A DNA stretch of 64,000 nucleotides, from positions 1 through 64,000 of the forward strand of contig JAIBBJ010000194.1 of the NCBI GenBank assembly GCA_019694735.1. Reading direction: 5' to 3'. Below, piece by piece: positions 1 through 32,933 of the stretch (positions are counted from its first letter, which is position 1; each line of letters begins with the position of its first letter). This DNA comes from Gemmatimonadaceae bacterium (GTDB lineage: Bacteria; Gemmatimonadota; Gemmatimonadetes; Gemmatimonadales; Gemmatimonadaceae). Position numbers and translations under genes: made by a program. Below the pieces are notes generated by a model. That model was not told the origin of the DNA and did no database searches. It was given only the letters and a program-made list of their open reading frames with translations.

Positions 1-1800
1 TGGTGTGCCGCCCGTGCGGATCGCGTACTCGCTCTCGATGCCGGTCCCGGTCGCATTGGCCGTGCCGACCCGCGCCTGGAACGCCGAGTTGGGCGACAAC
101 GAGGTCGTGGTCGTGGGTATCGACAGGAGGTCAACGGCGAGGGTGCGCACGACCACGGTCGCGGTGGCCGACGTGAAGCCGGGGGCCGTGAGCGTGATGG
201 TCCCCGTCCCCGTCACGCCCTCGAGGGCCTGGATCACGTACGGCACGCTCGTGCTCGGCGCGGTCATCGCGACGTCGATGAACGCGCTGCCGACCGTCGC
301 CGCGTTCGGCGCGACGAGGAAGCGGGTCGGGTCGGAGCTCTCCACGCGCACGGTGACGGCGCCGTAGTTCGAGGCACCCAGGGAGCCGCCCGTCGGCACC
401 TGCAGGCCGGCGCCGAGCGTTGCGCCGCCGGCGGACGTGGTCGGGGCGCTGACCGTCACGCTCACCGACGCGTTGGCGGTGCTCACGGTGCCCGGCGCCG
501 TGACGCTCACCGTGGTCGCGCCCGCGCCGAACGGATCGAGCTCCACGCCGCCGCTGGCCGCGCCGGAGGGAGAGCGCGCACTCCCGACCGGGACGGTGAC
601 CGTACGCACCTGCGCGGTGCCCGCGCTGGTCAGGAGCTGGGCGACGGCTGCGTTCCCGTTCGTCACGGTCGCCACGATGGGCGCGCCGCCCGCGCGGATG
701 CCCAACTCCGACTCGATCGCCGTGCCCGCGGCGTTCAGGGTGCCGACGCGCACCTGGAACGCCGCATTGGGCGAGAAGGTGGTGGTCGTGGACGGCACCG
801 AGATGAGGTCGATGCCGACCGGACGCACGGTGACCGTCGCGGTGCCGTCCACGAATCCCGGCGCGGAGGCGGTGACCGTGCCCGTGCCCGTCACGCCCTC
901 CATCGCCTGGATGACGTAGCTGAACGAAGTGCTCGGCGTGACGAGCGGTACGTCGAGGAAGGCGCCGCCCGGGGTGCTCAGATTCGGCGCGATGCGGAAC
1001 AGCGTCGTATCGGAGCTCGCGATGCGGACGGTGGTGGTGAGGCCGTAGTTGGAGGCGCCGAGCGACCCGCCGGAGTTGACCTGCAGCCCGGCACCGATCG
1101 TGGCGCCGCCGGCGCTGATCCCGGGCGCGACGACGGTGACGAGGCGCGTCGCGCCGGCGGTCGTGGTGGCGCCGTCCACCGTCACGCTGATGCTCGCGGT
1201 GCCGGCGCCGACCGGATCGAGCTCCCAGCCACCGCTCGCCACACCGGATGCGGAGCGGGACGAGCCGACCGGGATGGTCACGGTGACCGTGGCCCCGGTG
1301 TCCGCGGCGCTGAGCAGCCGCGCGACGCCGACCGCGCTGGTGGTGATCACGGCCGTGCGCGGCACACCGCCTGCGCGGATGCCGTACTCGGCCTCGATCG
1401 CGTCACCAGCGGCGTTCAGCACGCCGATGCGCGCCTGCGGGAACGCGTTGCCGGAGAAGGAGGTGGTGCTCGTCGGGACCGAGATCAAGTCCACCCCGAC
1501 GCCGCGCACGACCACCGTGGCCGTGGTGCTCGTGAAGCCGGGCGCCGAGACCGTGAGCGTCGCGGTGCCCGTCGCGCCCTCGATCGCGGAGATGTAGTAG
1601 GAGACGCTGCTGCTCGGCGCCGTGATCGGGATGCTGATGCTCGCCGTGCCCGGCGTGCCGGCGGCGGGGGCGACGCGCACGAGCGCGGGATCCGAGCTCG
1701 TGACGGTCACGGTGGTGCTGCCGAAGTTCGAGGCGCCGAGGGCCGCCCCCGAGTTGACCTGGAGCCCGCTCGCGATCGTCGCGCCGCCGGCCGAGATGCC
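1..1800 (-). repeat. Tandem repeats of 678-681 bp inside the Ig-like giant gene
   Basis: Equivalent points (codon for Thr or Gly in the motif GLQVNSG / GLQVPTG) lie at 1757, 1079 and 398, giving in-frame periods of 678 and 681 bp (226 and 227 codons). Each unit contains, in order, a motif like SAGGATIGAGLQV, a motif like SLGASNYG, a motif like YVIQALEGVTGTG, and a motif like IESEYGIRAGG. Copies differ at many positions, so they are diverged rather than fresh duplications. At least two full units and parts of others are inside the window, and the array continues past the left edge. Confidence 0.85.
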
Positions 1801-4800: not shown

Positions 4801-7365
4801 GTCGCCGCCGATGAAGCGGCGCTGGTTGGGCAGCACGCGCGCGCTGGCGGTGCCGGAGACACGGACCGAGCGGAGTCCGCTGACGGACCCGTCGAGCGGC
4901 AGCACCTGGCCGGTGCCGACGAGCGCGAGGGTGTCCACGGCGAGGACCGGCGCCGCGACCGCGCCCCCGACCTCGACGAGCGTGAGTCCCGCGGTCGCGC
5001 CGTCCGCGAGGGCGAGGTCGCCGCCGACGCGCAGCCGCCGCGGCTGGGCGAACGTCGGCGTGGCGACCTGCACGAGCGCGCCGGTGGCCTCGACGGTGAG
5101 GTTCCGCGAGAGTGCGAACGCGCCATCGATCCGCGTCGGGCCGCGGACGATGAGGTCGCGGAGGGTGGTGCCGTCCGCCGTGAGCAGCGTCGCGGTATCG
5201 CCGGCCGCAGGTTCGATGACGACCCGGTGCGTACCGGTCGCGGTGAAGCCGGCGCCGCCGAGCGTGACCGAGAGACCGCCCGCGACATGCAGCTCGCCCG
5301 CGGCGAACATGTCGCCCTGCCCGAACGCCTGCAGGCTGGCGAACCCGGCGTGGACCCGGTCGGCCGGGTCGAGCATCTCGAGGCGCGCGTTGCCCTGGAC
5401 GAAGAGCTGCTCCCCATCGAGGCGGACGACGTGGCCGCCCAGCGTGAGCACGCCGCTCCCGCCGAGTCCCAGCGACTTGCCGACGAGCACGAGCGAGTCG
5501 GTCAGGATCCGCCGTCCGTCCTCGATGGTCATCGGACACGCGAGGCGGCCGGCGACGGGGTGCGGCCCGTCGGTCGTCGGCGCGCCGAGCTGGAAGCCGC
5601 CGGCGACGCCGCAGCTCGCGGCGAGGACGTCGGTGCGCAGCACGAGCGCGTCGGCAACGCGGAGGACGCCGTCCCCGGTGAAGCCGACGGCACCGGCGTT
5701 GAGGCTGACGAACGCGCGGACACGCGACGCCTCGACGAGCGGCAGGTTGGTCACGCCGGTCGCCGGGATCACGACGGAGTCAGCGTCGGACGGCGCGCTC
5801 CCCTCCTGCCAGTTGCCGGCCAGCGTCCATGCGCTGCTCACCGCGCCGGTCCAGTGCCGCACGCCGGAGCCGCCGCCGGGCTGCACCGTCACGAGGACGG
5901 AATCGCGGCCGTCGTCGAGGGCGGCGCCGATCCAGGCGGTGCCGGCGGTGACGCCGACGACGCGGCCGGCGGCGTCCACGGATGCCACGGCCGGCGCGCT
6001 GGACGTCCAGGCGACCGCGCGCCCCGTGATGAGCGAGTCCGCCACGTTGTAGGTCTCGGCCGCCAGCGACTCCGCGTCCCCTGGGCCCGTCAGCGTGGTC
6101 CGCGCCGCGACCACGCGGATCCGCGTGATGCGCGTGCCGGCGACCGCGGTGCCCTGGAAGACGGCGTTCTGGAAGCCGGCACGCGACGCCGTCACCGTAT
6201 GGGCGCCGAGCGGCGAGCCGATGCGCCACTGCGTGGCCGCGTATCCGTTCGCGTCGGACGGTGCGCTGGCGGGCGAGACGGTACCGCCGCCGAGTGAGAC
6301 CGTGAAGTCCACGCTCACGCCGCCGACCGGCGCCCCGGTCGCGTCGAGCACGCGCACCTTCAGCGAATCGGGGGCGATCGCGCCCCAGTCGATCCGCTGG
6401 CCGTCCCCGGCGACGATCGCGAGGCGCGGCGTCCCCTGGACGACGATGGGGAGCGAATCGGAGATGCTCCCGCTGCTGGCGGTGATCACGGTCGTGCCGA
6501 GCGCGACCGCGGTGACGAGCCCGGTGGCGCTGACCCGCGCCACGGTCGTGTCGGTCGCCCGCCACGTGATGGGGGCCGCGGGCAGGGTGTCGTCGGCGAC
6601 GTTGAACGCCGCGGCGCGGAAGCGGACCGTGTCGCCGGCACCGGTGAGCAGCAGCCGGGGCGCGTCCACCGTGACCCGGACGACCCGCGTACCAGCGGTG
6701 GCCGTCGCGGAAACGCTCACGCTGTCGAAGCCCGGCGAGCGCGCGACGAGGCGCTGCGCGCCGACGGGGAGCCCGAGCACCCAGCGGGTCGTCGCGAGGC
6801 CAGCCGCATCGGTGCGCACGTTCGCGGCCGTGACGTCGCCGGCGCCGGCGCGGACCGTGAACTGCACGACGGTATCCGCGACGGGCTGCCCGAGCGGCCC
6901 GAGCGCGCGGACGACGATCGGCTGGAGCAGCGTGTCGCGCTGCTCCGCCGACTGCGCGTCGCCGCTGACGAGCACGAGCCGCGCGCGGCCGAGGACGGCG
7001 ACCGGGATGTCGAGCCCGAGCGCGCCGTAGGCGGCACGCACGGTCGCCGTGCCGTCACCGACGCCGCGCACGAGGCCGGTGGCGTCGACGCGGGCGACGG
7101 TCGTGTCCGTCGAGGAGTAGACGAGGGCACGCCCGGGTTCGACGGTCACGGCATTCCCCGTCGCGTCGAAGAGCGACGCGGCGAGGCGCGCCGTGTCGCC
7201 GACGGCGAGGTCGAGCCGCGCCGGCGCGACCGCGATGCGGCGCGGCGCGGTGGAGGGGCCGGCGTCAGGGCCCGTGATGATCCCGCTGCACGCGAACGCA
7301 CCCGCGAGGGCGACGAGCCCTGCGGTCGCGGACCGCCAGCGACGGGACCACCGGCGGGCCGACAT
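1..7365 (-). CDS. Giant Ig-like (Big_1/Big_2) surface protein, partial (runs off left edge)
   Basis: Not recognised as a named protein. The frame is open from the ATG at 7363-7365 to base 1 (at least 2455 codons, no stop found where I translated it), so the C-terminus lies outside the window. The N-terminus is an Arg-rich stretch, a hydrophobic segment and Cys26, a signal peptide or weak lipobox (AFAC). Visible order: alternating Big_2-like (motif TDTTVARVDATGLV near residue 95) and Big_1-like domains to about residue 500; a WTGAVSSAWTLAGNW motif near 504 that often opens passenger or beta-helix regions; a long beta-rich stretch to about 1075; a BACON-like domain around 1355-1455; another Big_1 domain around 1455-1560; then 226-227-residue tandem repeats from about 1820. 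Its ATG overlaps the stop of the upstream barrel gene (TGATG), so translation is probably coupled. Inference: exported surface adhesin or stalk. The high-Arg antisense frames here are shadows. Confidence 0.85.
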   Translation of the reverse strand, partial: MSARRWSRRWRSATAGLVALAGAFACSGIITGPDAGPSTAPRRIAVAPARLDLAVGDTARLAASLFDATGNAVTVEPGRALVYSSTDTTVARVDATGLVRGVGDGTATVRAAYGALGLDIPVAVLGRARLVLVSGDAQSAEQRDTLLQPIVVRALGPLGQPVADTVVQFTVRAGAGDVTAANVRTDAAGLATTRWVLGLPVGAQRLVARSPGFDSVSVSATATAGTRVVRVTVDAPRLLLTGAGDTVRFRAAAFNVADDTLPAAPITWRATDTTVARVSATGLVTAVALGTTVITASSGSISDSLPIVVQGTPRLAIVAGDGQRIDWGAIAPDSLKVRVLDATGAPVGGVSVDFTVSLGGGTVSPASAPSDANGYAATQWRIGSPLGAHTVTASRAGFQNAVFQGTAVAGTRITRIRVVAARTTLTGPGDAESLAAETYNVADSLITGRAVAWTSSAPAVASVDAAGRVVGVTAGTAWIGAALDDGRDSVLVTVQPGGGSGVRHWTGAVSSAWTLAGNWQEGSAPSDADSVVIPATGVTNLPLVEASRVRAFVSLNAGAVGFTGDGVLRVADALVLRTDVLAASCGVAGGFQLGAPTTDGPHPVAGRLACPMTIEDGRRILTDSLVLVGKSLGLGGSGVLTLGGHVVRLDGEQLFVQGNARLEMLDPADRVHAGFASLQAFGQGDMFAAGELHVAGGLSVTLGGAGFTATGTHRVVIEPAAGDTATLLTADGTTLRDLIVRGPTRIDGAFALSRNLTVEATGALVQVATPTFAQPRRLRVGGDLALADGATAGLTLVEVGGAVAAPVLAVDTLALVGTGQVLPLDGSVSGLRSVRVSGTASARVLPNQRRFIGGDLVIDGDFSLAQPFVAAMGVSGSLRVTGSGILRLGGTYSSLRVEGNALFDGRAMGAELANGDIELRGDLVQRATTSPASLRATSNFTLYLIGSGAVDFARPDSSWLSNVEHWGNLTRTLRSDVQVRGLVRYDLNNVTVRSEVLGAGGTRTIAARGIDFGGAVTVRNVAFRITDGAPIDLSFGPTFTDFDPAAVQLELIRSSGAAVFSAPVFETAPTGSGRYLRVSDPDGATNGAFTVAVQGATPATHGGFAEAIAPATITDWPAGVPLLEFAAAPDFALASGLQVRQLARLAGSTPAELPVSIRSLDSTQVLLGLDGETIGRDSIVRLADAGDTAVSYWVQALEGSTGVADLVVSAAGYRPDTIRVTIGAPAARLALLGPASVPAVGGTDPALQLTVGADSAGVFLPMALRRGGPGATFVVASSDSSVARIRFTPNGESFTLAQLAAEVTFDLRDRFGATVPPDTVGGVVSTLAFARAGAGGVAVASMVRPAGWTQYGPDPSLAVVVPRIVLSPDSVMFAAAVGSQTSLHRTVTVPAPATGSLAGLAAEIQYDAGASDWLGVAFDSTTAPTAFDLVATPEFLPPGTWTASVIVTATTPGAVPDTLSVAIVVTGVNRIVIVGGDGQSVPAARPAPDSLRVRVLRANGTPLDDAFVDFTISAGGGTLTPPANTTDNDGYVATAWTAGLLPGTYEVVASRNGFTPATFTLTVTTPPDFNISLVGDTIVGVNLPALVRATLPLPAPVGGTAVTLVSETPGRLSVTAPATRTVPAGQLSVDFDVQGLSIGTATVRASAAGLPDATFSVTVTNQILSLPTSQNVPLGLTTTIPIQLAAPAPAGGLSVTLSSSDPSRVQVVTGTVSVPAGATLASGTLRGVATGSATVVATAPGWIADTTLASTTAQIDIVETGLSLNATFGTTMTLRLLSGGSPLAAPAPGVTIELTSLNAACADVPAFVTIPTGQNAVTAAVSYGGSAVLPCATRIRATGTDLLADSTTVSVAAAPGISAGGATIASGLQVNSGAALGASNFGSTTVTVTSSDPALVRVAPAAGTPGTASISIPITAPSSSVSYYISAIEGATGTATLTVSAPGFTSTTATVVVRGVGVDLISVPTSTTSFSGNAFPQARIGVLNAAGDAIEAEYGIRAGGVPRTAVITTSAVGVARLLSAADTGATVTVTIPVGSSRSASGVASGGWELDPVGAGTASISVTVDGATTTAGATRLVTVVAPGISAGGATIGAGLQVNSGGSLGASNYGLTTTVRIASSDTTLFRIAPNLSTPGGAFLDVPLVTPSTSFSYVIQAMEGVTGTGTVTASAPGFVDGTATVTVRPVGIDLISVPSTTTTFSPNAAFQVRVGTLNAAGTAIESELGIRAGGAPIVATVTNGNAAVAQLLTSAGTAQVRTVTVPVGSARSPSGAASGGVELDPFGAGATTVSVTAPGTVSTANASVSVTVSAPTTSAGGATLGAGLQVPTGGSLGASNYGAVTVRVESSDPTRFLVAPNAATVGSAFIDVAMTAPSTSVPYVIQALEGVTGTGTITLTAPGFTSATATVVVRTLAVDLLSIPTTTTSLSPNSAFQARVGTANATGTGIESEYAIRTGGTP

Positions 7366-9038
7366 CAGAAGCTCCGCCCGAGCGTCGTCGTGAGGAAGCG
7401 CTCGCTGAATGCCGGGCGCGTGCCCTGCGCGCCGAACCGCAGCATCCGCGCCTGCAGGCTGAACGCGATGTCGCCGGGCAGCGTCCAGCCGAACTGCGCA
7501 CCGGCCGTGGTGACGGCGCGGGCGGAGACGAACGTCTGCGTGAAGTTCGCGGACGCGTTGACCGCGCGGAGGCCCGTCGCGCTCAGTCGCAGGCTCCCGA
7601 GCACGTTCTCGTTGTCGCCGCTCCCGTCGGGCAGGACTGCCGCGACCGAGGGGGCGACGAGCAACCACCGCGAGAGCGGCAGGGAGACCGCGAGGTTCGC
7701 GGTCTGCACGGTCACCGCCGGGGTGAGGCGCACGGGGTTGCGATCCTCATTCGACTGCCGCGCGTACGCGACGCTGACGCTCGCGCTCCGGGCACCGACC
7801 CGGAACGGCATCGCAAGGGCGGCATTGAACGTCGCGGCCCGGTTGTCGACGAGGAGCGTGTCGTTCGTGGCGTCATTGCCGGCCGCGGCGAGGAGGGCGA
7901 CCAGCGAGACCGTCAGGTTCGCGGGGAGCCGCACCGTCGCCGTGCCGGTCATGACGTCGCGGGTGGTCGTCGCGAGGCGCTGCGACGTGAGGTTGTTCTC
8001 CTGTCGCTGGAAGCGGCCCTGCAGGCCGAGCCGACCGCCCACGAGCCGCAGGTCGCCACCGAGGTTCCAGCCGCGGCGGTCGTTCACGAGGTACGCGAGC
8101 CCCAGCGAGGTGAAGCCGGCGCCGATGGACTCGTAGCCGCCACGAAGGCCGTAGCTGCGTCCCTGCCACTGCGCATCGAGGTTCCAGGCCGCGTCGCCGG
8201 AGCTCGACGTGCGCAGCGTACCGAGCCCCGGCGGCGCGCTGACGCTGTCGCCGGCGATCGCGCTGCTGGTGAGGTCGCGGGTGAGCAGCGCCCCCGCGAC
8301 CTCGCCCTTGAGCGCGAGCTTCCGCTGGAACAGCCGCAGCGAGCCGCCCAGCGCGGCGACGACGTTCTCCTGCGGCCGCGTACGCTGCTCGGGCCGGAGG
8401 TCCGCTGGCAGGGTGTCGAGGCCGAGCGTGTCGAACACGGTCTGCTCGTCCGGGATGAGGGCGTCCTGCGCGCGGACGATGCGGAGATCGAGCGAACGCT
8501 CCCCCGCGCGTCCGAGGCCGACCGCGCCCGCGATGACGCTTCGGCGGTACTGGGGCCCATCCGCCGTGGTGATGAGCGCAGCGCTCCGCCCGCCCTGCAC
8601 CGACGCGCGCCACCGCGTACGGTCCACGTCGAGGCCGAACCCGCGGATGCGGAGGCCCTGCATGGTGTACGGCGAATAGTCGCGCGCGAAGTCGCCGAGG
8701 TGGAGCTGGCCCCAGCCCCAGGTGGGCTCGAATGCGAACTGGTTGATGGACTGGCGCGCCGAATTGCCCTCGCTCGAGAGGAGCAGGTCGAACCCGACCT
8801 CGGTGGAGCCCACGAGCGCGAGGCGCGGCGTCGCCATGAGACGCCAGGTGCTGCCCGGACGGCGGCGCTCCAGTCCGTCGACCCCGTACATCTCGCTGAA
8901 CGCCTGCGCCTGGCCTCCGAGTCGACGGGTGAGCCAGTTGGCGCGCCCGGTGTCGGCGGCCGACGCCCCCACGGCCTGCGCCGCGAGCGGCGCGGCGAGG
9001 AACGACAGGACGCACGCCGCCAGATGCACGCGTCTCAC
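7365..9038 (-). CDS. Putative outer-membrane beta-barrel protein
   Basis: 557 aa, GTG start at 9036-9038 that overlaps the preceding stop as GTGA. A clean signal peptide (MRRVHLAACVLSFLAAPLAAQA) is followed by many amphipathic alternating strands rich in Gly, Arg, Ala and Leu with short turns (for example GLRIRGFGLDVD near residue 130). The chain ends in a terminal Phe (TLGRSF), the usual end of an outer-membrane barrel strand recognised by BamA. I do not recognise a family. It is the fourth gene of the five-gene operon and sits between a periplasmic helical protein and the Ig-like giant, so it is the natural candidate for an outer-membrane anchor or export pore. That role is inferred from position and fold only. 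Confidence 0.8.
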   Translation of the reverse strand: MRRVHLAACVLSFLAAPLAAQAVGASAADTGRANWLTRRLGGQAQAFSEMYGVDGLERRRPGSTWRLMATPRLALVGSTEVGFDLLLSSEGNSARQSINQFAFEPTWGWGQLHLGDFARDYSPYTMQGLRIRGFGLDVDRTRWRASVQGGRSAALITTADGPQYRRSVIAGAVGLGRAGERSLDLRIVRAQDALIPDEQTVFDTLGLDTLPADLRPEQRTRPQENVVAALGGSLRLFQRKLALKGEVAGALLTRDLTSSAIAGDSVSAPPGLGTLRTSSSGDAAWNLDAQWQGRSYGLRGGYESIGAGFTSLGLAYLVNDRRGWNLGGDLRLVGGRLGLQGRFQRQENNLTSQRLATTTRDVMTGTATVRLPANLTVSLVALLAAAGNDATNDTLLVDNRAATFNAALAMPFRVGARSASVSVAYARQSNEDRNPVRLTPAVTVQTANLAVSLPLSRWLLVAPSVAAVLPDGSGDNENVLGSLRLSATGLRAVNASANFTQTFVSARAVTTAGAQFGWTLPGDIAFSLQARMLRFGAQGTRPAFSERFLTTTLGRSF

Positions 9039-9811
9039 CGCATCCTCCCCGTGGTATCGGCCGCGAGGCGTGCCGCCTCGTCACGGCGCCCCAAGCGGTG
9101 GAGCACCTCGATCTCGTGCTCGCGGATGGCGGCGCTGGCGGGGTACACGAGCCGGAGCCGCGCGAGGTGCTCGCGCAGCCGCGGCAGCGAACCGTTGGCC
9201 TCGTGCGCACGCAACAGGGCCTCCCAGCCCGCCTCGTCGCCCGGCGCGAGCTCGAATCGTGCCTGCCGCGTCCGCAAGGCATCGGCCGGGCGGCCGAGTG
9301 CGTCGAGCGCGTCGGCGCGCCAGCGGAGGAACTGCGTGTCGCGCGGCGCGGTGAGCGCGAGGCGATCCACCAGTGCCAGTGCATCCCCGTGGTCGGCGGC
9401 GAGGATCGCCGCGCGCACCTCGGCGCGCTGGACCGGATCGTTCCCCGTCCATTCCGCGGCGAGGAAGCGGATGGCGGTGCGGCCGCGCGGGCCGGCGGCG
9501 AGCAGCTCGTCGAGTCCGGCCATCACGCGGGCGCGGGCGCGGGCCCGCTGGTCGAGGACCGCGTCATCGGCCGCGCGCAGCGTGCCGAGCCCGTCGGCGG
9601 GCATGAGCTCGCGGTCCGTGCGCGCGACCTCGCCGAGCGCGACGCGCAGCCGGTCCACGGCGGGGCGCACGAGCGGGTCGAGATCCTCGTAGCGCAACAC
9701 CGGCTGCGGCCGCGGCGCCGGAGGACGCACGGATGGCGCCGCCTGCGCGGCCGCGGGGTTCGCGGCGAGCAGCACGGCAGCGGCCGCGACGAGGGCGAGG
9801 ACCCGCCTCAC
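9035..9811 (-). CDS. Secreted alpha-helical (TPR-like) protein
   Basis: 258 aa with a signal peptide ending near AAAQA (about residue 24), then a Pro-rich linker (PSVRPPAPRPQPV) and an all-helical body. Segments such as LRWRADALDALGRPADALRTR (about 165-185) and WEALLRAHEANG (about 195) have the spacing of TPR-like helix pairs. GTG start at 9809-9811 overlaps the upstream stop (GTGA), and its own stop overlaps the next GTG. No catalytic motif is visible. Third gene of the giant-protein operon. A periplasmic adaptor or chaperone role is inferred from size, export signal and neighbours. The exact family is unknown. Confidence 0.75.
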   Translation of the reverse strand: MRRVLALVAAAAVLLAANPAAAQAAPSVRPPAPRPQPVLRYEDLDPLVRPAVDRLRVALGEVARTDRELMPADGLGTLRAADDAVLDQRARARARVMAGLDELLAAGPRGRTAIRFLAAEWTGNDPVQRAEVRAAILAADHGDALALVDRLALTAPRDTQFLRWRADALDALGRPADALRTRQARFELAPGDEAGWEALLRAHEANGSLPRLREHLARLRLVYPASAAIREHEIEVLHRLGRRDEAARLAADTTGRMR

Positions 9812-14800: not shown

Positions 14801-17800
14801 GCCGGTCGTTGATGAGGGCGAGCTTCTGCTGCGCCTCCGCGCGGCGCTGCCGCACGATCGCGGTATCGTTCGCCGCGCTGTTGTCCATCAGCGCGCCCCG
14901 GTACCACGCGGGATAGGGGTCCGTGGAGGTCAGCGGATAGAGCCCCGCCCCGTAGGTCCCCTCGCCCGCGACGAAGGTGCCCCAGAAGACCAGCACCTCC
15001 ACCGGGTTCCACCGCTGGAAGTTCTGGTAGGCCTGGATCAGGCTCTGCTCCGAGACCGCGATCGGCGTCGCCGCGCGCTGCTGCGCCGCGGCGTCGATGC
15101 CGGCCAGGATCCGGTTCGCCTCCGCCTCGAGGTCGGCCGCGATCTGCTCGGCGTTCGCCAGCACCGCAGCGAGCTCGTCGCTCTTGCCGATGCCGCCGGA
15201 GAACCCGGCGTCGGTCACCTTCACCCACGCCTCGAACGAGAGGGCGTCGATGCCGACGACGCGGGCCGCGCCCTGCGCGTAGAGCGCGAATGCGGGATTG
15301 ACGACGAGGGCGCCGATGAGCTCGATCTGCCCCGTGATGCCCAGCGCCGTGACGTTGCCGTAGAGGCGCATGTAGGCACCGAGGTCGTTCGTGCTGGGCC
15401 GGTACCAGATGCGCATGTTCGCTCCGACATCCACGCTCAGCACGCTGACCTCGCGCTGGATCCGGAATCCCAGGTTCGCCGTGAAGCCGCTCGGCACGAC
15501 GATCACCTCGGCGTAGGACTGGATCGTCGACAGGATGACGAGATCGACGTTGCCCTTGACCGCGAACAGGTTGTTGCCGGCGAAGAACTCGATGCTGGCC
15601 GTGCCGGCGACCGTCTTCTTGATGTCGAGGACGACCGCGACCATGCCGCGCACGTACGGCGCGGGGACCCAGCCGACCTGCAGCGCGAGGTCGCCCGAGA
15701 GCTGGTCGTTCATCTTGAAGAACGTCGCCATCGCGTTGATCTGGAACGCCTGGTCGGTGATCGTCACGAGGGCGCGGCCGGCGGCGGCCGAGACGCCGTT
15801 GGTGCCGGCGACCTCGAAGCCCGCGTACAGCATGACGGCGAACTTGCCGGCCGGCGGCATCCCGATCCGGTCCGACGCCGGGCCGTTCATGCCCGCGACC
15901 GCCTTGACCATCGCGAGGTCGCTCGCCCGGGGATTCACGAACAGCCCGCCGCCGACCTCGGTGAGCGTGACGATGCCCGGGATGATGGGGACCGTGACGC
16001 TGGTCCGCAGGAAGAGGCCGGCGCGGAAGAGCTCCCCGCGCTTCCCCATCACGCCGACCAGCCCGATGCGGTAGGCCCCCATCAGCGTCCCCTCGGTCGA
16101 CAGGGCCATGTCGAAGCCGTCGGGGAACTCATCGTAGCTCATGTTCGCGGAGAACTGGATCACGCCGGGGATCTCGACGTGGAGGTTCTCCATCAGGAAG
16201 TGGTTCGTGGCGTCGTCCGACTTCACGTACACGAGCACGCGATCCACGCCGCCCGAGAAGGTCCCGGCGACGTCCACCGAGGCGCCGAGGTCCACGAAGG
16301 TCGACACCCCGACGAGCACCGAGTCGCGCACGATCTCGCCATTCGCCCCCGGTGGCCGCGCGACCGGCACGTAGATGCTCGTGTCCTGGTCACTCCACGC
16401 GATGCGCCCGACGACGATCTTCACGGTGTTCTGCACCGTGAACGTGCCGCCGTCGAACGCCGCCGACCCCACCCGCACCTCACCCTCGGAGGTGAAGCCG
16501 ACGTGGCGGAACCTCAGGGACCCGCCCGTCCCGCTGAGGTCCAGTCCCAGCTCGCCCGAGATGTCCACCGCAAATCCCGTATTGGTGCTGGTCGCGGTCA
16601 CCTGCGTGAACGTCAGCTTCACCGGCGAGAGGTCGAGCGCGATCGGGTTCGGCATCTCCAGCCCGCCGAAGGTCACCTGCCCCGCCGCGCTGATGCGCAG
16701 CCCCGGTGTCACGACGTTGCCGACGACCTTCCCGAACTGCAGGACGTTCGTCGGCTTGTTCTGGATGTAGACGTCCGCGACCACCGAGACCGCGGTGTTC
16801 GCCGCGCTCGCGAAGTCGACCTCGAGGTCGAGCCGGCGCAGGTGGAACGTGGCGATCCCGACATCGAGCTTGGTCTGCGCGCTGGCGAGGCCCGCCGGTT
16901 CGTTCAGGATGACGATGCGCCCACCGCCGGTCACCGTGCCGTCCGGGCTGATCCGCACGAAGAGCTCCTGCGGCGCCCCCTGCGCGAACGGCGCCGGGAG
17001 CTGCACGTCCCCCCGCAGCTCGAGCGCGTTCTGTACGATCGCCACGCGCGTCAGCCGCGCGACGCTGTCGACGATCACGATCGGCTTCGAGATGAAGTCG
17101 GCGCCCTGCAGGCCGACCTGCCCGTCGGTGCCGATCCGGAGGCCGATGAAGCGCGTCGTGTTCTCCAGCATCGTCACGTAGCCGGAGAGCGTGAACCGGA
17201 AGATGCCGCGGTCGAACTGCACCCCGATCGCCGGGGCGACCTGCTGCGTCCCGACGGTCGAGTCCCGGAGCGCGAACCGCGCACCGAAGAGTTCGAACTC
17301 CCGGGTGTTGGCCGGCGCGGTCACGGAGATGCTCGGCACCTGGATGCCGGCCGTGCCGATCGAGAGGTCCTCGACGCCGAGCGAGAAGCCCGGGGCGAGA
17401 GACGGCAGGCGCACCGACCCGCCGAGCACGACCGAGAACGCCTGGGCGGACGCGTTCACCGCGAGCGCCGGCGCGGCCCCGTTCTCGAGCCGCAGCTCCG
17501 CCATCCCGATCGGGATCGGCGTCTCGGGGTCGCTGATGTCGGCCGTGCCCCGGAAGCCGTTCTGGTCGATGGATGCCGCGAGGTGGATCACCCGGCCGCT
17601 GCCATCCGGCTTCCTGAGGAGCGAGGACCGGATCCCGCCCGAGATCCGGACGATGTTGGCGTTGGGTGCCAGGGTGAGCTCGGCGCCGGTGAACGCGAGC
17701 GACAGCGTGTCACCGAGCAGCGTCGCCTCGGCGATGGGCGTGCGCGTCGGGTCGAAGGTCTCGCTGTAGTCGCCCAGCTCCACCGTGCCGGTGATGCCGG

Positions 17801-20800
17801 CGCCGGTGATGACCAGGTCGCGGAAGTCCAGGTCGATGTCGGCAAGGGGCCCCGGCAGCTTGGCGTGCGCGCCCGCCTTGAGCCGGAAGCCGCCGGTGTC
17901 GGCGGCGAAGCCGAGCTGCGTGATCGCGACCGGGAGGCCCTCGAGCGGGATCAGCGACTGGCCCTCGGCCGCCGTCAGGGCGAGGCCGCCCGACACCGGT
18001 CGCATCGTGCGCGAGTTCAGCACCAGGTCGAACTCGGCCTGTACCTGCGGCACCGTCCCGTTCTGCTGGGCGAGCCCGGGGATCGCGAGCGTGACGCGCT
18101 CGTTCGGCCGCGTCCGGACCCGCACGGTCTGGCCGCTGAAGGTCGTCTCGACGAGGAGGCGCGTCGTGTCGGCCGGGTCCCGGAGCTGCAGGTACGCCGT
18201 CTCGACGCTCGGTACGCCGAGGCGCGCCGGCACCGGGAGCACCGCGAACACGTTGCCCGGCCAGAAGCCGCTCGAGTCCGCGTACGCGATGAGGTCGTTG
18301 CCCGCATTGCGCAGTTCGATGCGGCCGCGCGTGATGCCGATGCGGCCCGCGGTGCTGATCGTGAAGCCGTCCAGGAAGGCGCCGGCGAGCGATGCGTACT
18401 CCGTGCCGTTGAACCCGAGCGAGGCCGTGGCAGTCCCGCTGACGTGGAACCCCAGCGAGTCGATGACCGCGCCCTGCGGCAGGACGAGCCGAGCCGAGGC
18501 TGCGCCGCCGCGGGGCGTCGACACCGGGTACACGCCGAAGAGGAGGGACCCGTCATCCGGGAGCTCGAACCCGACGGCCGCGTCCGCCGTGAGCCGCACG
18601 CGGCCGCTCCGCAGCCTGAGCGTGTTGAGGTCGAAGGCGACGTTCTCGAACGCGACGTCGACCCCGGCGCCCTCGTTGGTGCGCAGTTCGCCCGTCGCGC
18701 CGAACGCGAGCTCGTCGCGTGTCAACGACGCGGTGTCCACCACGAGGCGCAGGAAGGGATTGTTCGGGTCGGGCGCCCAGAAGAAGGGCCGGTCGATCGC
18801 GATCGCGGCGTCGAGCACGCGGCCCTCGTCCACGTCGAGCCGCAGGCGTCCGGTCGCCGAGACCGTCTGCCCGGCGGCCGCACCCGGCACCGTGAGCGTC
18901 GCGGCGGCGTCGAGCGCGACGTCCACGCGCTGGCGCGCCGCGTCCCAGCCGAACGAGACCGTGCTGGTGCCGAACGTCAGGTCGAACGGCCCGAGGTCCA
19001 TCGGACAGCGGGGCAGCACGTTCCGCACGGACCCGCGGATGGTGCCATTGCTGGCGAGGAACAGCGTGTCCGCCCCCGGGACCAGCGGCAGCATCCGCTG
19101 CGCCGGGTCGCAGGCCATCAGGTCCGGGAGGCGCAGGTCGGCGAGCACGCCGATGCGCACGTCGGGCGCCGCGCCGTCCACGACGCGGAACGAGCCGAAC
19201 GCGCCGCGGATGTCGGCGACCGGCGTACGGATCGGGACGGGGATCTCGATGGGCTCGAAGCGGCCGCTGAGCTGGCCGCCCTGCACCCCCACATCGAGCG
19301 CCCGCAGCACGAGTCGCGCCGCCTGACCCTCCACCGCTGACGGGAGGTCCTCCACCGAGAACTCGAGGTCCACCCCGAAGTCGAGGCTCGGCGGCGCCGC
19401 GCCGGCGAACCAGTCCCAGCGGAACTCGCTGACCCGGTAGGCGAGCGCGCGCACGCCGAACCCGCCGACCCGGAGCCCGGGCCCCGACGGGGCGAACGGA
19501 TTCGTCGCGTCCACTTGCGTGGGGAACGACGTGACCTCCACCGCGGGGATCACCAGTCCGCGCGGCGTGATGCGGATGTCGCGCACCTCCGGCAGCGCGA
19601 GACTGTCGAGCGCCGGCACCATGAGGCCGAGGTCGAACAGGAGTTCGAAGTCGAACTGCCGCCGGGCGAAGTCCCACCGGAAGGTCGGCGCGCGCGCACG
19701 GCCGAGGCGCAGATCCACGCCGGGCAGACGCAGGGTCGTCAGCGAGTCCGTCGCCGCGAAGTCCACGAGGGCGGCCTCCGTCGGCGACAGGCGGAAGGTC
19801 GCCGCGGCGACGGTGCGCTCGGCTTGGGTCGCGATGTCCTGCATCCCGAGCCGGCCGGGGAGCCGTACCTCCCACCGGAAGTCGCTCCCGATCCGGCCCG
19901 ACGCCTCGAACCGCAGCGTGTCGAGATGGAAGCGGACGGCCGATGACCCCTCGACCAGCGGCAGCGCGCCGGTGAACGGCTGCGACACGCTCGCCTCGAT
20001 CGCGCCGTCCCCCACCACGCCGAGGGCGAGGCGCATCGGCGCCTGCCCGGGGAACAGGTCGAGGCGGCCCGTCGCGGTGAAGCGGACGGGCACGTCGGGT
20101 CGCGCCCGCAGCATTAGCGAGTCGAGGACGAACGGGAAGCCGGGGATCGCGAAGTCGTCCGCAGCCGCGCCGGCATTGGTGGCGATGATCTCGCCGGCGA
20201 TGGGCCGCCACGTCCCCTGCTGCAGCGTGAGGTCCATCGCGATCGCGGCACTCGGCGCTGCCGTGCGGCTCCCCTGCAGCGCGGGGACCGCGATGCGCAG
20301 CGGTGTCCCGGGCTTGGTGCGGATCCGCGGCCCGTCGTTCGTCTCGCTCATCTCGACGAGCAGGTTCCGCTGGGCGTCGCGCAGCACGATGTACGCGGTG
20401 CGCCGGTCCGGCAGGAAGAGCGTGTCGGGCAGCACCGTCTGCACGAGTTCGCCGAGCGCGATGTGCCATCCCCCGGCGTCCAGGTACGCGATCGGGTACT
20501 GCCGCACCTTGAAGAGCGCCCGGCCCTCGGCGACGCGGGCCTGGGCGGGCTTCATCGCGAAGTTCTCGAACGAGACGCTCGCCGAATCGAAGCGCGACTT
20601 CGCGAACGCCGCCTGCGCAGGTGCCACGCCGTTGATGCGCATGCCCGTCGCATCGAGCGTCGGGGTCGTCGGCAACTGCAGGCGGATGTTCCCGAACGTG
20701 CTGGTGGGATCGAACGGCGCGGTCGCGTCGACGAGCGTGAAGCCCAGGATGTTCGTGCCCGAGGCCGTGCGGCCGGCGGCATTCAGCGCCCCGGTGCCCC

Positions 20801-23800
20801 CGGAGTCCACCGCCCCGCCGATCGTCGCGGCGCCCAGGGCGAGCGCCGAGCTGAAGGGCGAGGACTCGAGCGCGAGCCGCCCGTCGAACGTCACCGTCCC
20901 CGCCGCGACATCCCCGGTCACCGGGTCGAGTCGCACCCGGTTGAAGGTGACGCCCGTCGTGTCGGTGTGGCTGAGGTACGTCGTGTCCTTCGCGGTGCCC
21001 GTCGGGAGCTGCCGTTCGCTGCGGGAGACGAGCGTGCGTTGCCGCCCGTCGATCGTGAGGCCCGTGGTATCGAGGACGGCGCTGGCGACGATGAACTTCA
21101 GGAACCCGACCTCGAGCTTGAACGGCCCCTTGAGCTCGATCCGCCCGCTCAGCAGCCGCGAGCCGATCCAGTCGAGCCGCGCCTGCGCCCGCGCCGTGTC
21201 CGATGCACCGCCCAGCAGGCCGCTGCCGGCCGAGGTCGCGGCGGAGCCGGCCTGCCCGACGAGGCTCGAGTCCTTCTTGGTGGAATCGGCCTTCGCAGTC
21301 GTGTCCTTCTTCTCGTCCACGCGGCTGAAGTCGACCTTGACGGCGCCGTCGTAGATCGCGGTCTGCGCACCGGTGGTGTCGATGCCGAGCGTGAAGGTGC
21401 CGCCCGCCAGCTCCAGCTTCGCGAACTTCAGGTCGAAGTTGCGGAAGCTCTCGGCGAAGGCGCTCGCCCGCCCGATCAGGCGCCCGGTCTGCGTGAGCCG
21501 GATGTCCCCCTCGAGCGCCGCGCGCGGGGGCCCGCCGATGCATCCGAGTATCGGGATGCCGCAGTCCAGCTTCTCGTGCGTGACCACGGCGTCGACCGAC
21601 GGCAGTGACGTCGCGTGGGGGACGCTGTCGAGCGCGACCGCGACCTGGCCGTTCACGCGCAGGATGAGCGCGTGGAGGTTCTCGGCGGCGTACAGCCGGC
21701 ACCCGGACTCACCGAAGTCGTTGCCCTTCAGGTTCGCGGTCAGCGCGCCGGCACGCAGGATCAGGGTGTCGACCTCGAACGTCGTCCCGGTCAGGCACTC
21801 GGAGTTCGCGGGCGCGATGCGCGGCAGCCGGATCCAGCTGTCCTTCGAGCCCCACTCGAAGCCGGGGTCGAGGCGGCCGAGCCATCGCCGGTACGTCATC
21901 AGGCCGCCACGGAATCCCATGGTCCGGGGCACGATCCCGATGCCGGCCGCCTCGGCATAGCCGTTCACCGACGCGCCTGGGGATCCCGAACCCCAGCTCG
22001 GCAGCGTCACACCATTCTCGTCGAGCCGCACGTCGGCGATCGTCGAGAGCCCGAGCGTCTCGATGCCGCGCACGGCCGGCTGCAGGTCCACGAGCGCACG
22101 CCAGGTGAACGTGCCACCGGGCTGGTACTCGAGCCGGTCCACGCGGAGGTTCGAGAGCCCCATCCGCACCCAGCCGAAGTCGGCTACCGCTTCGCCGGCG
22201 GAGCAGGCCGCCCGCTCGTCCTCGCGCGCGATGCCGTCGCGCGAGAACACCATCGTGAAGTGCAGGGTGCAGTCCTGCCGCTCGGACCCGAACACGCTGA
22301 AGGTCGCCGGGGCGCGCAGGTCGGTACCGAGCGTGTCCGTGAGGAAGTCCGCGCCCAACGCTCCGGCGACCGTCCCGAAGCTGAGCAGCGACGCGCTGAT
22401 CGTGGTGTCGGGCCGGAAGCCGCGCGTCGGGTCGCAGAAGACCGGCAACCGCACCACGCCCTGTTCCATCGCCCCGGCCGCCGGGCAGCCGACCTCCTGC
22501 TCGAAGAGCATCACCTGACCGGTGAACTCGAGCCGCCCCTCGGGGAGCGAGAGGCGAGCGCCCGTCGCCGCGTACTGCACCGGCGCCCGCCCCACGCGGA
22601 CGACCGGCGCGGCGACGGTGCCCGTGCCTTCGAGACGGCCGACGAGCCCGCCAGGCGTCAGCTGCGCGCTGCCGGCGAGCGGCACCGCCGACTGCCCCGG
22701 CACCTTCAGGGTCGCGGTCGCCCGGAATCCCGCGGTCGCGTCGAACACGAGCGGCCCGAGCGTGACGAGTTGCGCGACGTCGCGCGCGAGCAACCCGGCC
22801 GGGGCGGCGAGCTCGAGCCGCCCGTCCAACACCGCGAACACACCGCCGCGCAGCCCGACGCGCAGGTCCTGCAGCATCACCTGCTGTGGCGCGAACCCGA
22901 GCGCGGGCGCGAACTCGACGACCGCGGGGCCCGAGAGCCCGAGATCGAGGTCCCCGCGGTCCACCTTCAGGGCCGCGAGCTTGGTCAGCCGCGCGACGCC
23001 CGGCACGAGGTCGATCGCCTCCGGCAGCTCGAGCCCCTTCCGCAGCGGCTGCAGCAGCTCGTCGGCCATCGCGAACGACCAGATCTCGGAGGCGATGCCG
23101 TCGCGGAACAGCTGTCGGCCGTCCGCGTCGACCGCCCGCACCTGCCAGGCATACCGCTTCGTTCGCTCCAGCTGCAGGGCATCCAGGGGATAGAGCAGGA
23201 ACGGCGTGTTCGTCACCGTCCGGAGCACCGGGATGTTCGCCTCGAGCGCCGCGCGCGGCACCTGCGTGCCGAGCAGCTCGACCACCGTCACTTCATAGGA
23301 GACGGGGACCGTGGGCGGCGCCAGCACCGGTGTCCACTGCAGGAACGGCTGGGTCGCGATCACGGTCTCGCCGTCCTGCGGCGACAACAGCTGCGGCGGG
23401 TCAGGCTGGAGGATCGAGAAGTCGGCGCAGGCCTCGGTGGCGACGGTCCCGGCGGTCCCGATCAGCACGCGGGCGCAGGCGCGGTAGTTCCCCTCCGGGA
23501 GCTGGCCCGTCTTCTGCACCGCATCGGTGATCGCGATGTTCCGCGAGACGGTCGTCCACTCGGTCACCGCGTCACGGACCGAGTAGAGGAATGAGGTCGG
23601 GCCCCCCGGCACCGTGACACTGGGGCTCTCCGTCACCCCGACCTGGCCGCGCTCAAGGCTCGTCAGGGTGACCCTGACGCGGAAGTCCGTGGCTCCGGTT
23701 CCGGTATAGGTAAGTGCCAGGAGCGCCGTGGACGGGACCTGCTCCCAATCCGACACGTACGGGCTGGGCGTCGGGCTGATCGTCAGCGCTCCGGTCCAGT

Positions 23801-23900
23801 TCGCGGACTGGCCGCGCACCCCGGCGGGCAGCAACAACGCCCCTGCCGCGAGGACAGGTGCCAGTGACCGGAGACCGAGGGCGCGTCGGGTGGGGAGCAA
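11811..23900 (-). CDS. 4029-residue secreted giant protein, first gene of the operon
   Basis: Not recognised as a named family. The start is a TTG at 23898-23900, the farthest in-frame start, with GAGGT just upstream, followed by a signal peptide (LAPVLAAGALLLPAGVRGQ). Layout: an N-terminal beta domain; an Ig/FN3-like segment with LLSPQDGETV near residue 167; about 2600 residues (290-2900) of repeating beta-strand sequence with recurring phrases (DLRLPGVDL, GTVELGDYS, ISVTAPANT), weakly reminiscent of AsmA/TamB-like repeats; a helical, Ala/Gln-rich probable coiled-coil region (about 2910-3350); and four C-terminal FN3-like modules carrying DPESGIQEYTYRV-type motifs near 3545, 3740, 3845 and 3950. 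A low-complexity Lys/Asp/Ser patch lies near residue 880. Inference: periplasm- or surface-spanning scaffold. The TGATG overlap with the FN3 gene implies coupled synthesis. Confidence 0.85.
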   Translation of the reverse strand: MLPTRRALGLRSLAPVLAAGALLLPAGVRGQSANWTGALTISPTPSPYVSDWEQVPSTALLALTYTGTGATDFRVRVTLTSLERGQVGVTESPSVTVPGGPTSFLYSVRDAVTEWTTVSRNIAITDAVQKTGQLPEGNYRACARVLIGTAGTVATEACADFSILQPDPPQLLSPQDGETVIATQPFLQWTPVLAPPTVPVSYEVTVVELLGTQVPRAALEANIPVLRTVTNTPFLLYPLDALQLERTKRYAWQVRAVDADGRQLFRDGIASEIWSFAMADELLQPLRKGLELPEAIDLVPGVARLTKLAALKVDRGDLDLGLSGPAVVEFAPALGFAPQQVMLQDLRVGLRGGVFAVLDGRLELAAPAGLLARDVAQLVTLGPLVFDATAGFRATATLKVPGQSAVPLAGSAQLTPGGLVGRLEGTGTVAAPVVRVGRAPVQYAATGARLSLPEGRLEFTGQVMLFEQEVGCPAAGAMEQGVVRLPVFCDPTRGFRPDTTISASLLSFGTVAGALGADFLTDTLGTDLRAPATFSVFGSERQDCTLHFTMVFSRDGIAREDERAACSAGEAVADFGWVRMGLSNLRVDRLEYQPGGTFTWRALVDLQPAVRGIETLGLSTIADVRLDENGVTLPSWGSGSPGASVNGYAEAAGIGIVPRTMGFRGGLMTYRRWLGRLDPGFEWGSKDSWIRLPRIAPANSECLTGTTFEVDTLILRAGALTANLKGNDFGESGCRLYAAENLHALILRVNGQVAVALDSVPHATSLPSVDAVVTHEKLDCGIPILGCIGGPPRAALEGDIRLTQTGRLIGRASAFAESFRNFDLKFAKLELAGGTFTLGIDTTGAQTAIYDGAVKVDFSRVDEKKDTTAKADSTKKDSSLVGQAGSAATSAGSGLLGGASDTARAQARLDWIGSRLLSGRIELKGPFKLEVGFLKFIVASAVLDTTGLTIDGRQRTLVSRSERQLPTGTAKDTTYLSHTDTTGVTFNRVRLDPVTGDVAAGTVTFDGRLALESSPFSSALALGAATIGGAVDSGGTGALNAAGRTASGTNILGFTLVDATAPFDPTSTFGNIRLQLPTTPTLDATGMRINGVAPAQAAFAKSRFDSASVSFENFAMKPAQARVAEGRALFKVRQYPIAYLDAGGWHIALGELVQTVLPDTLFLPDRRTAYIVLRDAQRNLLVEMSETNDGPRIRTKPGTPLRIAVPALQGSRTAAPSAAIAMDLTLQQGTWRPIAGEIIATNAGAAADDFAIPGFPFVLDSLMLRARPDVPVRFTATGRLDLFPGQAPMRLALGVVGDGAIEASVSQPFTGALPLVEGSSAVRFHLDTLRFEASGRIGSDFRWEVRLPGRLGMQDIATQAERTVAAATFRLSPTEAALVDFAATDSLTTLRLPGVDLRLGRARAPTFRWDFARRQFDFELLFDLGLMVPALDSLALPEVRDIRITPRGLVIPAVEVTSFPTQVDATNPFAPSGPGLRVGGFGVRALAYRVSEFRWDWFAGAAPPSLDFGVDLEFSVEDLPSAVEGQAARLVLRALDVGVQGGQLSGRFEPIEIPVPIRTPVADIRGAFGSFRVVDGAAPDVRIGVLADLRLPDLMACDPAQRMLPLVPGADTLFLASNGTIRGSVRNVLPRCPMDLGPFDLTFGTSTVSFGWDAARQRVDVALDAAATLTVPGAAAGQTVSATGRLRLDVDEGRVLDAAIAIDRPFFWAPDPNNPFLRLVVDTASLTRDELAFGATGELRTNEGAGVDVAFENVAFDLNTLRLRSGRVRLTADAAVGFELPDDGSLLFGVYPVSTPRGGAASARLVLPQGAVIDSLGFHVSGTATASLGFNGTEYASLAGAFLDGFTISTAGRIGITRGRIELRNAGNDLIAYADSSGFWPGNVFAVLPVPARLGVPSVETAYLQLRDPADTTRLLVETTFSGQTVRVRTRPNERVTLAIPGLAQQNGTVPQVQAEFDLVLNSRTMRPVSGGLALTAAEGQSLIPLEGLPVAITQLGFAADTGGFRLKAGAHAKLPGPLADIDLDFRDLVITGAGITGTVELGDYSETFDPTRTPIAEATLLGDTLSLAFTGAELTLAPNANIVRISGGIRSSLLRKPDGSGRVIHLAASIDQNGFRGTADISDPETPIPIGMAELRLENGAAPALAVNASAQAFSVVLGGSVRLPSLAPGFSLGVEDLSIGTAGIQVPSISVTAPANTREFELFGARFALRDSTVGTQQVAPAIGVQFDRGIFRFTLSGYVTMLENTTRFIGLRIGTDGQVGLQGADFISKPIVIVDSVARLTRVAIVQNALELRGDVQLPAPFAQGAPQELFVRISPDGTVTGGGRIVILNEPAGLASAQTKLDVGIATFHLRRLDLEVDFASAANTAVSVVADVYIQNKPTNVLQFGKVVGNVVTPGLRISAAGQVTFGGLEMPNPIALDLSPVKLTFTQVTATSTNTGFAVDISGELGLDLSGTGGSLRFRHVGFTSEGEVRVGSAAFDGGTFTVQNTVKIVVGRIAWSDQDTSIYVPVARPPGANGEIVRDSVLVGVSTFVDLGASVDVAGTFSGGVDRVLVYVKSDDATNHFLMENLHVEIPGVIQFSANMSYDEFPDGFDMALSTEGTLMGAYRIGLVGVMGKRGELFRAGLFLRTSVTVPIIPGIVTLTEVGGGLFVNPRASDLAMVKAVAGMNGPASDRIGMPPAGKFAVMLYAGFEVAGTNGVSAAAGRALVTITDQAFQINAMATFFKMNDQLSGDLALQVGWVPAPYVRGMVAVVLDIKKTVAGTASIEFFAGNNLFAVKGNVDLVILSTIQSYAEVIVVPSGFTANLGFRIQREVSVLSVDVGANMRIWYRPSTNDLGAYMRLYGNVTALGITGQIELIGALVVNPAFALYAQGAARVVGIDALSFEAWVKVTDAGFSGGIGKSDELAAVLANAEQIAADLEAEANRILAGIDAAAQQRAATPIAVSEQSLIQAYQNFQRWNPVEVLVFWGTFVAGEGTYGAGLYPLTSTDPYPAWYRGALMDNSAANDTAIVRQRRAEAQQKLALINDRRAAVEERIRALRVELDAAEQVAAYVPPADPVRRYEFGAPVLVSGPPDAKGNPTMIVANPPQFDLDDQAAAAARTAATAAAATTQARAARLRTQIADVEAGLATVLAATTATDPSSFASYARVHSDLVEAIEHQFAADVDFRMRRRTWVQGKLDTLATQRAAVVQQLNDRIDAAVAAARASHPEDRIQRLRVVMTLDTIALHRARLLTYWSADQSILAAYQSEAATHWATVNANVTRLAQDPGDGAAMGFLDIETTWFRTQATNFGLQAWWGVANAGLTAASAGAGTLVQQADAAARPTIRAMRDMHARITAQLDSLNRRQYQLVGTLFDLYDGYLRVYGPADSAASAFAARKAQLAQLLQTPRVVSSTVAVTDFGFLSSVQSTWTGSHPNGVYEYLMQEGADSLFTVGAQGTARRWVYTTDVNGASLPQNQRLLVRGGAGETAQTNTPFTVTFRRGSAANPVASVATPPVDLSAPSIATVGLPGLVNRPDSLGNPVYWAGDPDRVLVSWSATDPESGIQEYTYRVVRNDYMQLTTRSGNAGGLFGGLSVATLRPIAVTELVPWTTAGGRTGLTLAGLGLPGGADLRVEVRARNGAGILGPVGSSAVFRLDLTPPVFPAGTVLTTPPVTGGIAGLTTRSFGTVLPTFTVAGYTEPLVPTCGVTSVMQKGVGTVSVKVWDGKLVAVTPDNAVVGPTVVPGITLTFPQATDDESGIYGYGWRVDTIAPTGPVSTTGWYDLPALMSSFRASSPAMVYGRPLWITFGAINGVGAIGPLTYGPVTFSDNTGPSAPGFCADWTSAGFVAYLTALSTDPESGVRGYQLRVRTAAGALVRDFPAGGAVDWPASQAAVGRAVRIPVAGLAGGSYRVDLRAVNGGGVGGDRTVSGDLTVDVTPPPVPAVQATRQLQVVRVQVNAADDPETHITGFEVAIGSTAQDPLAPKSQTTVYVPYGAYAGVAGANTIMITLPASIATGTPLYAYVRARNGAGVLSTSAIVMVH

Positions 23901-28342: not shown

Positions 28343-28416
28343 CAGTGGACTCTCCCGAAAGTGAGCTGTGGGGTTCGGGGCGCAGGGGTGGCGGAAGGGC
28401 GCACCACCGCATCGGC

Positions 28417-28422
28417 AATATA
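28417..28422 (-). promoter_or_regulatory. Candidate -10 box (TATATT) of the ompA-like gene
   Basis: On the minus strand TATATTG stands in a GC-rich intergenic region, 74 bp upstream of the chosen start. It is one base off TATAAT and also fits TAnnTT. No good -35 is present at 16-18 bp. Part of the 265-bp gap between ompA and rpoC. Confidence 0.5.
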
Positions 28423-28544
28423 TGGCGCGGACCACGCGGGTGACGTGACATCGCTCACTGTCGCGCGACGAGACGGCGGTCGGCCAGACCACCTCCGGAG
28501 AGCACCTGAGGAGGAACGTGCCCACCCGCACCGGGCGGAAGCGC

Positions 28545-28577
28545 GACGGCGCCCCGAGCAGGGCTCGGGGCGCCGTC
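28545..28577 (-). terminator. rpoC transcription terminator hairpin
   Basis: A perfect 15-bp stem (GACGGCGCCCCGAGC, 28545-28559, with its reverse complement at 28563-28577) and a 3-nt loop, starting 30 nt after the rpoC stop. It should end the long tRNA-independent rpmG-to-rpoC transcript. No clear U-run follows. Confidence 0.8.
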
Positions 28578-28607
28578 ACTTCACATCGCCTCCGGGGCGA
28601 CCGGGGG

Positions 28608-32930
<4,323 letters not shown>

Positions 32931-32933
32931 CGG

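Follow-up and report, generated by a model that had tools for sequence, protein, structure and literature searches.

Introduction

The TANFOR domain forms the head of polymorphic toxins of Bacteroidetes, the genes of which are enriched for Fn3 neighbours, and many TANFOR proteins carry no recognised toxin domain (Jana, Salomon and Bosis 2020, PMC7073777). The exit route of these toxins could merely be hypothesised in that study, in which TANFOR genes were proposed to encode substrates of the type IX secretion system (T9SS) in Bacteroidetes (PMC7073777). Here, we describe a TANFOR locus from outside Bacteroidota, located at the end of contig JAIBBJ010000194.1 of a Gemmatimonadaceae bacterium (assembly GCA_019694735.1), in a stretch of 64,000 nucleotides that we refer to as the window. 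Five genes, g1 to g5, encode a giant protein with a TANFOR head, an Fn3 protein, a tetratricopeptide repeat (TPR) protein, a predicted outer-membrane beta-barrel and a giant protein with immunoglobulin (Ig) domains. A sequence-only reading of this DNA had assigned the genes to one functional unit and had recognised no named system in it. The former view is borne out by the conserved gene order and start/stop coupling described below, and the latter has to be amended, since both TANFOR proteins and the Fn3 genes beside them have been described before (PMC7073777). The barrel partner, its fusion to TANFOR, the presence of such a locus in a phylum other than Bacteroidota and without T9SS, and the unit of five genes appear to be new, as they were not found in the open-access papers searched.

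Results

A barrel family accompanies TANFOR proteins

The AlphaFold model of g4 contains about 24 long strands and resembles an outer-membrane barrel (pLDDT 70.3, pTM 0.61), as the sequence-only reading had anticipated. The best solved matches in Foldseek were ushers (including PapC and FimD), MtrB and TonB-type barrels; at the level of the model, this resemblance is generic and extends to large outer-membrane barrels in general. Sequence searches placed g4 in no Pfam or NCBIfam family and found it no relative of solved structure; we predict it to be an outer-membrane beta-barrel of a previously unnamed family.

To assess how this barrel is distributed, we used a nine-row barrel profile, which found the barrel in 12 of 16 genomes that had been chosen solely for a TANFOR-like protein. 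Within the Bacteroidota phylum, 132 of 296 sampled genomes had a barrel match, longer barrels of 800-950 aa included. A TANFOR or giant open reading frame adjoined the barrel or lay at most two genes away at 29 of 32 short-barrel loci of this phylum, and when the three known TANFOR loci were removed, such a neighbour was present at 26 of the 29 loci picked by the barrel alone. The longer barrels adjoined TANFOR proteins of 1931-2169 aa at four loci, and at nine others a TANFOR-like protein of 367-422 aa was encoded upstream in six cases. Furthermore, in two genomes (G465 and G496) a signal peptide, TANFOR and the barrel are fused in a single polypeptide (1027 or 949 aa), with TANFOR ahead of the first barrel strand. 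The divergence of TANFOR was correlated with that of the barrel (r 0.805, 47 loci). Linkage in several phyla together with the gene fusion supports the conclusion that the barrel belongs specifically with the giant, and we consider direct contact between TANFOR and the barrel likely on these grounds. Because the barrel accompanies TANFOR across phyla and is sometimes fused to it, our results suggest that it is a dedicated partner that moves or holds TANFOR giants at the cell surface.

Longer barrel paralogues with an added Ig part were observed at three Bacteroidota loci (L201, L202 and L207), in an operon with the order small TANFOR-like protein, FecR-like, barrel and CHASE2-like adenylate/guanylate cyclase; the FecR, CHASE2 and cyclase assignments were verified by Pfam at L202. 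Two other genomes (G226 and G230) have an expanded family, with 8 or 9 barrel matches per genome, several of which adjoin TANFOR proteins.

The giant g1 and its TANFOR head

The giant consists of a signal peptide, TANFOR (approximately residues 31-280), a long repetitive beta body, a helical stretch (approximately residues 2900-3400) and an Ig/Fn3-like C-terminus. Whole-protein scans of g1 against Pfam, NCBIfam and PHROGs returned no match, and the NCBIfam TANFOR model TIGR02542 matched its N-terminus weakly (E 0.0094, under the 67-bit cut-off). The same model matched 14 of the 24 members of the g1 N-terminal alignment, the best at 4.2e-6 for a relative, and no other family recurred. In addition, a hidden Markov model (HMM) built from Gemmatimonadota only recovered all seven tested TANFOR-flagged proteins of the Bacteroidota phylum (2e-34 to 7e-23), the reverse model found g1 of the window at 9e-29, and alignment of the two profiles with hhalign gave 99.8% over 234 columns. 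On these profile comparisons, homology of the g1 N-terminus to the TANFOR domain is close to certain. Like other TANFOR-containing proteins, g1 has a Sec signal peptide, as judged from its hydrophobic N-terminus.

A genome scan for TANFOR, run with a four-row alignment because an eight-row one was too diverse, showed that the family also occurs in WOR-3, KSB1, Ignavibacteria/Chlorobiota/Kapaibacteria and Bacteroidetes. Three further matches carry the labels Desulfobulbaceae, Armatimonadetes and Bradyrhizobiaceae and may be binning errors.

AlphaFold modelled a 1021-aa piece of the giant body as almost entirely beta (pLDDT 73.8, pTM 0.41), and the model had no real fold match among solved structures (TM at most 0.10), so a TamB-like reading of the body found no support. 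Searches of solved structures by sequence with the barrel, body and TANFOR profiles gave nothing usable. The body can be longer than in the window: on contig G213:C10 (L035, L036) the giant frame is open for 6807 aa and has approximately four copies of a body module, each some 650-700 aa long. In G207:C165, the giant frame contains one in-frame TAA; either the gene is disrupted or the assembly is wrong there.

The five genes are conserved as a unit

A tblastn search with the five window proteins recovered the order g1-g2-g3-g4-g5 in G126 and, across contigs C38 and C39, in G087. All five genes are also present in G213 and in G093 (another family of the class), with only weak matches to g3. Genes g1 to g4 were found in order in G211 and in a second, divergent copy in G087 (contig C7), where a different Ig-like gene follows the barrel, and parts of the unit occur in G147 and G020. 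The identity of g1 is 58% within the genus of the window and 26-30% beyond it. G126, G087:C39 and G213 share the TGATG junction at which the barrel gene meets the lipoprotein gene, and the other junctions examined in relatives are start/stop overlaps as well. The barrel is patchy in Gemmatimonadota, with 11 of 298 genomes and 9 of 119 genera positive. Outside this phylum, a KSB1-like genome (G221) has the five-gene order in two tandem units, with an Ig-like lipoprotein after the barrel just as at the window locus, WOR-3 loci have the order giant-Fn3-TPR-barrel, and the loci of Ignavibacteria, Chlorobiota and Bacteroidota mostly have the order barrel-giant-Fn3. By gene order and homology, the five genes form a real conserved unit, and it is very likely that barrel, TANFOR and Fn3 protein act as one functional unit.

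The locus persists without a recognisable T9SS in the genus of the window

The SprA translocon, the PorU sortase and C-terminal domain (CTD) substrates were used as markers of T9SS. SprA was present in 33 of the 39 module-bearing genomes tested. All 11 genomes from the window's genus, and G213 as well, gave no SprA match, and this did not change with a profile built largely from Gemmatimonadota SprA sequences, which scores its own positives at E = 0. PorU was not found in any Gemmatimonadota tested, and neither the window genome nor any Gemmatimonadota tested had the CTD tail TIGR04183; the type B tail TIGR04131 was not searched. PorU and CTD substrates occur in every non-Gemmatimonadota genome tested, although one WOR-3 genome scored below the cut-off for PorU. 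Because SprA, PorU and CTD substrates are absent there, the cassette is, as judged by these profile searches, maintained in the window's genus without a recognisable T9SS, and its independence from T9SS in the window genome is probable. In lineages beyond this genus, cassette and T9SS coexist. Four other Gemmatimonadota (G211:C10, G020:C41, G093:C186 and G147:C430; L196-L199) have full-length SprA homologues above the cut-off and neither PorU nor CTD proteins, and thus possess a relative of the T9SS translocon without the rest of the system.

Gene junctions, accessory proteins and neighbouring genes

The features of the locus are listed in Table 1. The five minus-strand genes, their lengths and their four overlapping junctions were exactly as the sequence-only reading had given them, and a hydrophobic signal segment opens all five proteins, in agreement with the export signals proposed there. 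The overlaps amount to 1 or 4 bases: TGATG for g1/g2 (g1 TGA stop at 11811-11813, g2 ATG at 11811), GTGA for g2/g3 (stop at 9808-9810, g3 GTG at 9811), GTGA for g3/g4 (stop at 9035-9037, g4 GTG at 9038) and TGATG for g4/g5 (stop at 7365-7367, g5 ATG at 7365). The signal region of g1 contains no ATG. The locus DNA is 70-75% guanine plus cytosine and rich in long antisense open reading frames; because protein homologues of approximately 26-73% identity occur in the same order and the overlaps recur in relatives, the frames of g1 to g5 are not chance. The source genome is 3.5 Mb, and its closest relatives in the genome collection are Gemmatimonadetes metagenome-assembled genomes.

Table 1. Positions of the genes and domains at the locus (window coordinates)
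Feature	Position	Strand	Description	Basis
g1	11811..23900	minus	4029 aa, TTG start, TANFOR giant	junctions, signal segment, homology
TANFOR domain and adjoining Ig-like half of g1	23046..23810	minus		TIGR02542, reciprocal HMM, hhalign
g2	9808..11811	minus	667 aa, exported Fn3-like repeat protein	Pfam fn3, orthologues
g3	9035..9811	minus	258 aa, exported TPR protein	TPR_14, orthologues
g4	7365..9038	minus	557 aa, predicted outer-membrane beta-barrel, unnamed family	AlphaFold, Foldseek
g5	1..7365	minus	>2455 aa, probable giant Ig-domain lipoprotein, cut by contig end	Pfam, lipobox, relatives
BTAD/TPR regulator-like gene	24105..26933	plus	942 aa	Pfam BTAD 8.1e-6 and TPRs

The protein g2 matched Pfam fn3 (E 1.1e-15); of the five FN3 domains that had been claimed for it, about five repeats can be seen by eye and one is significant alone. 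Its orthologues adjoin TANFOR giants across the Fibrobacteres-Chlorobi-Bacteroidetes phyla. The helical-repeat protein g3 matched TPR_14 (5e-4), consistent with its earlier description, and orthologues or TPR matches hold its position in Gemmatimonadota, KSB1, WOR-3 and some Bacteroidota. In g5, Pfam found Big_1, Big_2 and CarboxypepD_reg. Its signal ends in LAGAFAC|S, with a cysteine, and the lipoboxes of relatives are clearer, so that g5 is probably a lipoprotein. Matches of g2 and g5 to PHROGs tail fibres were dismissed, as they merely reflect shared Fn3/Ig domains.

The window begins at the contig end inside g5, which is therefore cut by the assembly. In G087, the closest complete relative, g5 is present in full (3074 aa), and the gene that comes after it in the same direction is a different one that looks like a transporter by sequence; the five-gene unit therefore probably ends with g5.

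On the other side, 204 bp separate g1 from the divergent BTAD/TPR gene, the place and orientation of which are kept in all five same-genus genomes that have the giant, and which is a candidate regulator of the g1-g5 operon. A sigma-70 promoter scan at the operon returned no match and is uninformative at such base composition. Further upstream (27020-37514), the window contains a gene for an OmpA/TSP3 protein as well as rpoC and rpoB; rpoC also adjoins the operon in G126, and the OmpA gene does not.

Discussion

We propose that the exported giant uses its TANFOR head to dock on a barrel of its own, and that this barrel anchors the giant or exports it for display at the surface; we give this reading a probability of roughly 0.5. 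The Sec pathway would take the five proteins across the inner membrane, with g4 inserting in the outer one. The ends of outer-membrane barrel chains are normally periplasmic, and because TANFOR precedes the first strand in the fusion proteins, it probably lies at the mouth of the barrel on the periplasmic side, where it would dock the giant. Docking of TANFOR on the barrel is moderately supported, and export or surface display by or on g4 stands at about even odds. The long beta body and the C-terminal Ig domains would either go through the barrel or be retained at it, and would be displayed in the form of a fibre; the Fn3 protein g2 and the TPR protein g3 would help in assembly or stability, and g5, the Ig lipoprotein, would be a second surface component. 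In lineages with C-terminal toxins on TANFOR proteins, the same head and barrel could deliver toxins. We tentatively extend this, at less than even odds, to TANFOR as a barrel-docking signal that forms, with its barrel, an undescribed two-partner system for outer-membrane export or display. This system would be independent of T9SS and distributed from Gemmatimonadota to Bacteroidota, and would serve for giant structural proteins and toxins and, together with FecR and the CHASE2 cyclase, for envelope sensing.

Several observations weigh against docking and display on the barrel. Beyond the window's genus most module-bearing genomes possess SprA, and absence from draft genomes is weaker than absence from closed ones, yet the 11 genomes of the genus agree. 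Three of the 32 short-barrel loci have no TANFOR neighbour, linkage and correlated divergence are equally expected from co-inheritance, and the AlphaFold models of barrel and body are only moderate in quality. Giant-barrel contact, export through the barrel and surface location are inferred.

The prevalence of SprA also bears on the possibility that the giant is T9SS cargo and g4 a SprF/PorP-like cognate accessory that presents one substrate to the translocon. SprF-type partners are encoded beside their cargo in Flavobacterium, which fits the arrangement at this locus. TANFOR genes have, moreover, been tied to T9SS (PMC7073777). However, g4 matches no PorP/SprF family, and SprA is missing from the genus and G213, as are PorU and CTD proteins from all Gemmatimonadota tested. 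A pure T9SS reading was rejected on these absences for the window's genus only, and we regard cargo status as unlikely overall. About equally unlikely is a wholly periplasmic giant, tethered by the barrel to the outer membrane and serving as a long envelope scaffold or lipid-bridge-like rod, with nothing secreted. The fusion argument does place TANFOR on the periplasmic side, the body is very long and nearly all beta, and related barrels lie in a signalling context with FecR and the CHASE2 cyclase. On the other hand, the body fold matches no solved bridge proteins, no membrane segment was found in g1 past the signal peptide, the cell exterior is the more usual place for Ig/Fn3 domains and for an Ig lipoprotein, and TANFOR toxins would need to exit the cell (PMC7073777).

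A polymorphic toxin locus with an unrecognised toxin tip is much less probable still. Such a locus would explain the TANFOR head of g1, and toxin domains go unrecognised in many TANFOR proteins (PMC7073777); but the Ig/Fn3-like C-terminus of g1 aligns to its last residues with same-genus relatives, with no swapped tip, Pfam and NCBIfam recognise no toxin in g1, and a scan of 32 C-termini of TANFOR giants found no toxin family. Where a small immunity gene would be expected, the next gene encodes the Fn3 protein g2, and no immunity gene was recognised. One of the 32 C-termini (alignment A9) matched the T4 gp19 tail-tube family (4.1e-12).

There is a real chance that this is a new secretion or display system. 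A barrel that is linked to TANFOR, fused to it in two genomes and present in genomes without the T9SS translocon is a concrete candidate for the exit route of TANFOR toxins, and the linkage suggests a possible role for a common uncharacterised outer-membrane protein of the Bacteroidota phylum.

Comparison with known systems

Linkage of the genes is kept in related genomes, and the barrel and the TPR helper matched no known secretion system, so that neither of the refuting outcomes named in the sequence-only reading was observed; overall, that reading is partly supported. Resemblances to known systems are partial. As in the Bacteroidetes TANFOR toxins (TIGR02542), TANFOR follows a Sec signal in a very large protein with an Fn3 neighbour. 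Unlike those loci (PMC7073777), the window locus has no recognised toxin or immunity gene, its giant ends in a conserved Ig/Fn3-like C-terminus, and it lies outside Bacteroidota, in a genus without T9SS, beside a barrel partner absent from the paper's account. With T9SS and its SprF/PorP-type partners it shares a Sec-exported giant whose own outer-membrane protein is encoded beside it; it differs in that the genus has no CTD, SprA or PorU and g4 has no PorP/SprF match in Pfam or NCBIfam. In contrast to two-partner secretion, g1 and g4 have no POTRA/ShlB or TPS domain, and the constant head is TANFOR and not TPS; in contrast to chaperone-usher and intimin/invasin systems, Pfam found no usher or chaperone family in the five genes and no LysM-intimin family. 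What the locus has in common with all three is a barrel devoted to a single surface protein that is large or rich in Ig domains, and with chaperone-usher systems also a generic fold similarity of g4 to the PapC and FimD ushers.
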